The notes beneath the pieces were generated by a model. The model had not been told where the DNA came from, did not search any database, and saw only the letters and a list, made by a program, of their open reading frames with translations. From positions 1-42,212 of the forward strand of contig PFDV01000009.1 of the NCBI GenBank assembly GCA_002772745.1: 42,212 nucleotides of DNA. Reading direction: 5' to 3'. Below are positions 1 to 2,743 of this stretch, piece by piece. The DNA is from Candidatus Peregrinibacteria bacterium CG10_big_fil_rev_8_21_14_0_10_55_24 (GTDB taxonomy: Bacteria > Patescibacteriota > Gracilibacteria > Peribacterales > Peribacteraceae). The position numbers were made by a program, and so were the translations under genes. How positions within the stretch are numbered: position 1 is the stretch's first letter; every line of letters starts with the position of its first letter.

Positions 1-54
1 GCCACCACCTCCATCCGTACTCCACGTGAGAACGCCGTTCCCATCGGTCTTGAG
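1..54. repeat. 54-bp direct repeat, copy 1 (partner 1063-1116)
   Basis: Exact match to 1063-1116. It encodes the GTVLKTDGNGVLTWSTDGGG module of the surface protein. It may extend left beyond the window. Identity at nucleotide level points to recent duplication or gene conversion inside the gene. Confidence 0.9.
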
Positions 55-2439
55 TACGGTTCCCGACGATCCGTCCACTGCGGGGAACGTGTACTCCACC
101 GTATTGAGCGTAATCGTATTCCCCGCCCCGCCCACAATCAGGTTGTCATCGGTCTTGAGGTAATCGGCCGCACTCCGGTACAGGTTCACATCGAATATTC
201 CGTTGTACCCAAAGAGCAGGTGCGGATTCAACGCCTTGCCGTTGCCGTACGTGATCACCGGCATATCGATGGCCTCACCGGGGTGTGCCAGGGACTCGGA
301 ATCCAGGAGCATGCCGGTGCCGGTGCCGTTCTGGTCAAGCAGGATTGCAATCTTCGCCGCTGCGTCGTTCTCTACCTCGAACACGTAGTCGCTGTCCGTG
401 CCGTTGCTTGAGGGATTATCAATGCGCACGGAGTCATCCGTAGAGTTCGTGGCGATGGTGGCATCACCGCCGTTGGCATCATTGTCGTAGGCCTGCTGGA
501 GCGTAGTGGTGGATTCCCCGGCGCTCGTCTGATCCGTGACGCAGCTGAACCGCTTCGTCGAGGAGTTCCACACGAGCTTGCTTGTGACCGGGTCACAGTT
601 CGTAAGCCCTGCACCCTCGAAGGTCGAGGAAGCGTTCACGTACGCTCCGGACAACGTCTGACGTACATAGAAGGAGTCATCCGTGTAGAGCAGATGCGCG
701 CTCTTCCTGTACAGGTTCACATCAAACGTCCCGTTGTACCCGAAGAGCAGGTGGGGGTTCAACGCACGGTTTCCTCCATCGTACTGCATTTCGACCATAT
801 CGATGGCCTCACCGGGGTGTGCCAGGGACTCGGAATCCAGGAGGATGCCGGTTCCGGCTCCATCGTTGTTAATGTAGACCGCTCCTGTTCCAACGACTTC
901 CGATGTCGTCACACTCAGTCGACCTCCGGACATCGTTCCTTTCACTTCGAGCGTCGTCTCTGGTGCCCAGGTATCCTCTCCTCCTTCGGTGATGAGCAGT
1001 GCCCCTGTCATGGTATCACCCGCAACCCGGACGTAGCGGTCGTCTGCACTCTCCTCGGTTAAGCCACCACCTCCATCCGTACTCCACGTGAGAACGCCGT
1101 TCCCATCGGTCTTGAGCACAGTGCCCGAAGCACCCTCCACGTAGGGGTAGAGGTAGTCGATGCCGTTGAACCATGTTTTCTTTCCTTCCTCAACAATGAG
1201 TGCACCTGATGTTGTCAGGAGATCCTGTGCGTGCAGCACGCGGCCGGAAGCAGCTCCGTGTACTTCCAGGAGCAGGCCAGCATCTGCGGTTTTTGAGCCA
1301 ACATTCTCGCCGATGACCACCGATCCGGAAACAGAGAGAGGACTGCCGGGGGAAGCTGTGGCGATGCCGAGCTTGCCACGGAGGTACGATTGTTCATCAC
1401 CGTACGTACCTGCGACACCCAAGCTGGATACGCCGAAAACAGTTTCCGCTTCAGAACGTTTGGCATTGGTGACCGTACCAAACTGAGAAGCATAGATAAC
1501 GGCGAAATCGCTGTAGTTTACTATGCCGTCTCCCGTAACGTCTGCCCTTGCATATTGTTCTTTGGTCAGCGTGGTTGATCCATTGATGTAATTTCTCAAA
1601 AGAAGAACATCATCAGTGAGTATATCTCCATCACCGTTCACGTCACCCGATCCCCCAGTGAAGTAAATGCTGCCGTCGACATCCAGTGTTGCGGCTATGC
1701 TCCCTGTGCCGATTCCTACGCGCTCGTTTGTCGTATCGATATTGAGGACAGGATCGCCTCCGTCTGCGTCAAGAACGAGCACGGCTGTCGTTGAATCTGC
1801 TGCAGGCTGAATCTTGACACTGCCTGATGCACTGAGCATGTCCTCGGAGTGAAGATGCGTTCCCGATGCGGTTCCCTGGATGTTCACGTCATCGTTGAAG
1901 TTGAATCGACCGGAAGTTCTCTCGTAGGTGATGGTTTTCTGTAGCGTTTCACCGAACTGGATGTACACATCGGATGCCGTGTCGGCATCGTCGATCACCT
2001 GGAACGCTTCGGTATTCACCAGGAGTGTGGGGTTCCATGAACTTGCCGCAGACGCGGGGAGAATTGCCAGGAAGACTCCTGCATTGATCAGGAAGACCAC
2101 AATCAGGAAGAAGCGCAGCTTGCGTAACCACACGGGTGTTCGATGTTCTGTGAGTGGAGGCAGGAGGAAGAGCGTTTTGTTCTGTGCGGCTTCCTGCGCT
2201 CTCTCTGTTGTAGGCAGATCCATGAGTGTACTGAGATTCTGTGGGTCGTAGCGCTTCCACCAACGGTAGAACGTCGTCCGCGCAATGCCGAAGTGCCGGC
2301 ACGTCGCGCTCACGGAGCCGTGCTGGAGGAAGTGCAGGAACCACTGGAGTCTCTCAACCACCTCGGGCGGGTACTCCTGAGCGATTGCCTTCTGGAGTTC
2401 CATGAGGAGCACTTCGGTGGTGACGTTACGGTCGGTCAT
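1..2439 (-). CDS. HTH-transmembrane-dockerin-like/tail-fibre-like surface protein, partial (C-terminus beyond the left edge)
   Basis: The frame is open from ATG at 2439 to base 1 without a stop, giving 813 visible residues. Residues ~35-60 form a helix-turn-helix of the IS481/transposase type (SVSATCRHFGIARTTFYRWW). Residues ~108-134 are one hydrophobic segment ending in a small-residue stretch (ILPASAA). Residues ~264-322 contain two DxNxDGxxxxxD-type loops (DVNGDGDILTDD; DVTGDGIVNYSD) arranged as in type I dockerin. The remainder resembles phage-tail-fibre/adhesin modules: ERVGIGTGS, DDRYVRVAGDTMTGALLI, and two copies each of GTVLKTDGNGVLTWSTDGGG and a GILLDSESLAHPGEAIDM-type block. Topology by inference: HTH in the cytoplasm, the rest outside. 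The hydrophobic segment could instead be a cleaved signal, but the ~108 residues before it are far longer than any signal peptide. No transposase catalytic domain is visible. No Shine-Dalgarno precedes the ATG; a strong extended -10 lies ~48 nt upstream. Confidence 0.85.
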   Translation of the reverse strand, partial: MTDRNVTTEVLLMELQKAIAQEYPPEVVERLQWFLHFLQHGSVSATCRHFGIARTTFYRWWKRYDPQNLSTLMDLPTTERAQEAAQNKTLFLLPPLTEHRTPVWLRKLRFFLIVVFLINAGVFLAILPASAASSWNPTLLVNTEAFQVIDDADTASDVYIQFGETLQKTITYERTSGRFNFNDDVNIQGTASGTHLHSEDMLSASGSVKIQPAADSTTAVLVLDADGGDPVLNIDTTNERVGIGTGSIAATLDVDGSIYFTGGSGDVNGDGDILTDDVLLLRNYINGSTTLTKEQYARADVTGDGIVNYSDFAVIYASQFGTVTNAKRSEAETVFGVSSLGVAGTYGDEQSYLRGKLGIATASPGSPLSVSGSVVIGENVGSKTADAGLLLEVHGAASGRVLHAQDLLTTSGALIVEEGKKTWFNGIDYLYPYVEGASGTVLKTDGNGVLTWSTDGGGGLTEESADDRYVRVAGDTMTGALLITEGGEDTWAPETTLEVKGTMSGGRLSVTTSEVVGTGAVYINNDGAGTGILLDSESLAHPGEAIDMVEMQYDGGNRALNPHLLFGYNGTFDVNLYRKSAHLLYTDDSFYVRQTLSGAYVNASSTFEGAGLTNCDPVTSKLVWNSSTKRFSCVTDQTSAGESTTTLQQAYDNDANGGDATIATNSTDDSVRIDNPSSNGTDSDYVFEVENDAAAKIAILLDQNGTGTGMLLDSESLAHPGEAIDMPVITYGNGKALNPHLLFGYNGIFDVNLYRSAADYLKTDDNLIVGGAGNTITLNTVEYTFPAVDGSSGTVLKTDGNGVLTWSTDGGGG
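262..309. repeat. 48-bp direct repeat, copy 1 (partner 796-843)
   Basis: Exact match to 796-843; encodes the LLDSESLAHPGEAIDM block. The similarity continues less exactly into the flanking ALNPHLLFGYNG-type coding sequence, so the duplicated protein module is larger (~50 residues). Confidence 0.9.
796..843. repeat. 48-bp direct repeat, copy 2 (partner 262-309)
   Basis: Exact match to 262-309 inside the same coding sequence. Confidence 0.9.
1063..1116. repeat. 54-bp direct repeat, copy 2 (partner 1-54)
   Basis: Exact match to 1-54, inside the same coding sequence. Confidence 0.9.
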
Positions 2440-2487
2440 GGGTGTTGCGGTTGGTGTCGCGCACTATGTCCAGAACGAAATCTCTCC

Positions 2488-2496
2488 ATTATAGCA
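2488..2496 (-). promoter_or_regulatory. Extended -10 (TGCTATAAT) of the HTH surface protein
   Basis: Perfect extended -10 on the minus strand with the TATAAT hexamer at 2488-2493. The predicted transcript start is near 2480, leaving a ~40-nt leader before ATG 2439. No convincing -35 is seen. This gene is one of the few in the window with a leader. Confidence 0.65.
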
Positions 2497-2526
2497 AAAA
2501 ACCACGATTTTTGGAAGCCCCATTGG

Positions 2527-2592
2527 GCTACAGCGCAATCGGTGGTTCTGAGAAATCTGTAGCGCTACATCGTCAATGGGGTGTAGCGCTGC
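2527..2592. promoter_or_regulatory. Three TGTAGCGC-type motifs upstream of the HTH surface protein (candidate operator)
   Basis: TGTAGCGCTACA at 2558-2569 is a perfect 12-bp palindrome. CTACAGCGC at 2528-2536 and GTGTAGCGCTGC at 2581-2592 are partial copies. All lie just upstream of the predicted promoter at 2488-2496. Binding by the gene's own HTH is inference only. Confidence 0.4.
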
Positions 2593-2743
2593 TCAAATAC
2601 GCTTGAAAGTGAGGTCCAATATCGAAATTGGGGCCCACCTATGCCCGTGGTTGGCTTGCCAGCCGAAGTCGCAGCGGATTCAATTCCATTGAAGATTTCG
2701 AATTCCACGGGGCTACGATGGGCAGCCTACGCTGCGCGTAGGC

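Follow-up and report, generated by a model that had tools for sequence, protein, structure and literature searches.

Comparison of related genomes suggests that the 12-bp palindrome upstream of an HTH-bearing surface protein gene is very probably the operator of the N-terminal HTH of this same gene, and that the protein would thereby limit its own expression, most likely by repression. The window (the whole analysed stretch of 42,212 nucleotides) stems from a member of Ca. Peribacteraceae, and the named relatives of the protein belong to Ca. Peribacteria and Peregrinibacteria MAGs, several of them labelled Peribacteraceae. The following elements of the window are referred to below.

2558 to 2569, minus strand: putative distal operator 1, perfect dyad TGTAGCGCTACA; seen in the letters, maximum of the weight matrix (PWM) from other genomes, conserved upstream of orthologues
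2582 to 2593, minus strand: putative distal operator 2, AGCAGCGCTACA; PWM score 9.1, 24 bp from operator 1
2455 to 2466, minus strand: putative proximal operator TAGTGCGCGACA, a degenerate site of the 5' leader; PWM score 9.6, matches the proximal site of orthologues
2527 to 2538, minus strand: half-site (TGTAGC), the third copy of the first-pass annotation; PWM score under threshold, without counterpart in genome G060
2488 to 2496, minus strand: extended -10 TGCTATAAT, from the sequence, aligned in orthologues
2511 to 2516, minus strand: weak -35-like TTCCAA with a 17-bp spacer, from the sequence
1 to 2439, minus strand: HTH-signal/TM-surface protein gene of at least 813 aa, truncated at the end of the contig
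2245 to 2355, minus strand: HTH domain, aa 29-65 (HTH_28/HTH_23, Pfam), like the N-terminus of IS481/IS3/IS630 transposases
2047 to 2109, minus strand: hydrophobic segment aa 111-127 and, after it, the signal-peptidase-I-like site PASA|ASS, from the sequence
1495 to 1647, minus strand: dockerin type I domain of the surface part, from the domain search

The perfect palindrome and the extended -10 downstream of it had been described in the first-pass annotation, and both are present as described. From the two partial copies said to flank the palindrome, the one at 2582-2593 stands (TGTAGCGCTGCT, two mismatches), while the other, reading GCGCTGTAGC on the minus strand at about 2527-2538, is a half-site that is not conserved and probably represents an accessory element or a chance match. 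A more credible third site, missed at that time, lies in the leader at 2455-2466, between the -10 and the ATG, and has three mismatches. If the weight matrix is built without the window gene, position 2558 reaches a score of 20.9, which is the maximum possible, and the next best place in the 42 kb scores 10.1. Three of the nine best PWM places of the window (2558, 2455 and 2582) are located at most 155 nt upstream of the start codon of the gene. The excess of the motif over the whole window is weak, with 19 matches at up to three mismatches compared to 11.5 expected. The window also contains an intergenic repeat at 2633-2759 with a palindrome of 10-bp stem (2723-2745) and a 16-nt copy (2744-2759) of the 3' end of tRNA-Ser (2832-2847); pieces 70-80% similar to this repeat are present in several other genomes of the family.

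In the source genome of 1.29 Mb the exact 12-mer occurs once, and one further place with one mismatch lies just beyond the 3' end of an adenosylhomocysteinase-like ORF, so that a function is not provable from this one genome alone. A relaxed pattern, TGTNNCGCNACA, matches eight places compared to six for the pattern in reverse, and none of the eight obviously lies at a second promoter. As the genome holds a single exact site and a single HTH-TM gene, without an HTH paralogue, a regulon within the same genome was rejected. The enrichment at paralogous HTH-TM genes proposed as a check in the first-pass annotation is therefore seen across species and not within the source genome. In front of a DNA ligase-like gene of this genome (L203, G000:C4:17071), at a distance of approximately 160 bp, a pair of operator-like sequences was observed, TGTATTGCGCTCC and TGTTGCGAGACA; it may be a second target or a chance occurrence.

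Of 74 family genomes, 16 contain HTH-TM relatives, the gene being patchy in its distribution. The 350-nt upstream regions of these 16 genes were searched, and as several genomes belong to the same genus the 16 loci are only partly independent. TGTMGCGCKACA occurs exactly in 11 copies in 10 of the 16 regions, and within one mismatch at 25 sites in 15 of the 16, the orthologue without a site being L013 in G059. Dinucleotide shuffles of these regions gave 0.00 exact sites and 0.04 within one mismatch, and the reversed pattern gave 0. An unbiased k-mer count leads to the same word: TGTAGCG/CGCTACA is the top 7-mer with 28 copies in 14 of the 16 sequences (0.5 sequences expected), and in shuffled sequences no 7-mer was found in more than six.

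We then counted TGTMGCGCKACA in all 74 genomes, which resulted in 25 places. The total is not enriched, as the reversed control gives a similar count, but the location is: 11 of the 25 places, from 10 genomes and 7 genera, precede an HTH-TM gene by no more than about 300 nt. Regions upstream of HTH-TM genes account for approximately 6e-5 of the DNA, and from the sizes about 0.002 of the 25 places would be expected there. Thirteen places fall within ORFs, and the remaining one is intergenic, beside a terminator-like hairpin (G039). Neither a random scatter of the motif nor poor conservation upstream of orthologues was thus observed, and the autoregulatory operator proposed in the first-pass annotation gains support at the level of sequence.

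In principle, the protein that binds the sites could be a different, unlinked transcription factor in control of surface protein genes. The distribution of the sites makes this explanation very improbable. None of 17 paralogous surface genes that share the same SSWNPTLLVNTE module and lack the HTH carries a site within one mismatch, which indicates that the sites go with the HTH and not with the surface protein. Outside the neighborhood of HTH-TM genes, 13 of the 14 places lie within ORFs. The site is also missing from most relatives with a different HTH: in 14 related genes with a second winged HTH we found no exact site and one within one mismatch, and they share the word AAAG[AT]TCA instead (9 of 14, compared to 0 of the 16 HTH-TM genes).

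The position weights describe a 12-bp dyad, T-G-T-A/C-G-C-G-C-T/G-A-C-A. At its edges the information drops from 1.6 bits to about 0.1 on the 5' side or 0.4 on the 3' side, and conservation that ends at the edges is an argument for a constraint on a site rather than for general sequence similarity. In 15 of the 16 HTH-TM genes a site is located between the -10 and the start codon. In eight of the 16 genes the distance from the start of the -10 to the start of this proximal site is 21-22 nt, which places the site just within the expected transcript. Distal sites are found 75-260 bp upstream of the proximal site with very variable spacing. The three-site layout of the window genome (-100/-76/+27, counted from the -10 hexamer) is shared by G060 (-98/-74/+26), including the 24-bp spacing between the two distal sites, although much of the intervening sequence differs. 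The -10 points toward the gene in all 16 loci and is near-consensus, extended in several of them, and many orthologues possess TTGAAx/TTCxxx at the place of the -35-like element.

An operator that covers the first transcribed bases behind a near-consensus, often extended -10 is the arrangement typical of steric repression, and for this reason autorepression is favored over activation. In the proposed mechanism two HTH heads would bind the 12-bp dyad TGTnGCGCnACA, presumably as a dimer, and their presence on the site right after the transcription start would block initiation from the strong, often extended -10 promoter. Assistance may come from one or two further sites that precede the proximal site by approximately 75-130 bp, in some cases by up to 260 bp. 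Proximal and distal sites showed no helical phasing (R 0.1-0.3, n=21), and DNA looping is therefore not supported and only a possibility.

Alternatively, the HTH might act as an activator or dual regulator, with upstream sites recruiting RNA polymerase and the leader site tuning the output. The weak -35 of most orthologues and the strong distal sites upstream would fit this idea, as would the fact that the only perfect site of the window is one of its two upstream sites. We nevertheless regard it as unlikely, given that the most constant site falls into the initially transcribed region, that the -10 is near-consensus and in several genes extended, and that the distal spacing varies so much. 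Palindromes on both sides of the promoter, one of them in the leader, might also be read as leader RNA structure or as recombination sites of an invertible promoter. This seems hardly credible. The distal copies lie upstream of the promoter and hence outside the transcript, and a gapless dyad makes a poor hairpin; an inversion is contradicted by the uniform orientation of the -10, and the domain search found no recombinase domain in the protein.

The HTH is matched in Pfam by HTH_28, HTH_23, HTH_29 and transposase/resolvase HTHs, and AlphaFold assigns a pLDDT above 90 over its helices. Relatives of solved structure were not significant by sequence, and the best Foldseek hit of the fold search has an E value of 0.85. 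After the first hydrophobic segment, no further one with a mean hydropathy above 1.6 was found in the protein parts read. Between PASA|ASS and the dockerin domain the window protein contains the module SSWNPTLLVNTEAFQ. About half of the HTH-TM proteins (L005, L006, L007, L008, L010, L011, L012, L015) possess a CxxC-type cysteine pair, often HxCPxC, between the HTH and the membrane segment. Two HTH-TM genes, L007 (G052) and L010 (G048), show no ATG, GTG or TTG at the homologous place, where ATT (ATT CAC ACx) fits the alignment; an ATT start is known for infC.

In G005, G032 and G048 the HTH-TM part and the surface protein are encoded by separate overlapping genes, which indicates that the head is able to stand as a protein of its own beside the surface gene; the HTH head of G048 is of the TGTCGCGCGACA type. 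The HTH-less paralogues have ordinary signal peptides that end with AxA| right before the common ASSWNPTLLVNTE module, and in most fused proteins the membrane segment ends likewise (ASA|ASS, ATA|SSW, ALA|ASS and so on). Based on this match the HTH may front a cleavable signal peptide. We tentatively put forward, as a possible but less likely reading, that a signal peptide has the HTH as its cytoplasmic head and that transcription is matched to secretion capacity. A precursor awaiting export would then keep its head on the operator and the gene shut, and export with cleavage at PASA|ASS would free the head from the surface protein, so that the head would be lost or sequestered at the membrane. 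In G005 and G032, where short forms of the protein stand alone and have no AxA site, tethering by itself may suffice.

Genes with the second winged HTH form a group of their own (L019-L032, L086-L099; IS481 N-terminus, profile about 1-107), and some are fused to hydrophobic segments and surface domains. Upstream of them the word AAAGATCA/AAAGTTCA is found, AAAGATCA in 10 of 28 sequences with 0.7 expected, and neither word occurs in the 16 HTH-TM genes. The word is possibly a second operator family, and a different upstream motif common to related HTH genes suggests a larger family of self-controlling surface proteins. Candidate terminal repeats with TTCAA/GTTCA (e.g. GTTCAGGAGCTTGGCAACAC), faintly resembling AAAGTTCA, were noticed at the IS481-like elements L191 and L196.

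The results provide a concrete candidate operator-regulator pair for bacteria of the Candidate Phyla Radiation, in which gene regulation is little explored, and tests of this pair in E. coli do not require a culture of the source organism. The architecture is unusual in that the surface protein is fused to a transposase-like DNA-binding head that seems to control it, and an earlier account of HTH-bearing surface proteins in Peribacteria did not turn up in the library that we searched.

The HTH is encoded in the gene or operon it would control, and the conserved dyad stands at its own promoter and hardly elsewhere between genes, as is expected of an autoregulator. KorA of plasmids is an autorepressing HTH protein with a palindromic operator. 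The same is described for the Aca proteins of acr-aca operons (PMC9410906). In common with both, short inverted repeats are found at the own promoter and the HTH is part of the controlled unit; unlike in both, the HTH of the window resembles a transposase N-terminus and is fused via a signal-peptide-like segment to its presumed target protein.

Membrane-bound one-component regulators of the ToxR/CadC type carry an OmpR-type winged HTH. The window protein shares with them the N-terminal DNA-binding domain, the single membrane segment and a large part beyond the membrane. It differs from them in that its HTH is not of the OmpR-type winged kind, in the AxA-like cleavage site after the membrane segment, and in its outer part, which is a large surface protein and not a small sensor.

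A third comparison concerns transposases. Identity with an IS481 transposase was rejected (30 bits compared to a cut-off of 224 bits, profile positions 2-55 of 284, no catalytic domain), as was an origin of the operator from the terminal repeat of a resident IS481, because a crude scan around eight IS481-like family genes revealed no TGTAGCG-bearing ends. The likeness is confined to the head: the HTH of the window aligns with the start of the IS481 transposase model (approximately its first 55 positions) and with comparable stretches of those for IS3 and IS630, that is, with the N-terminal DNA-binding part of these enzymes.
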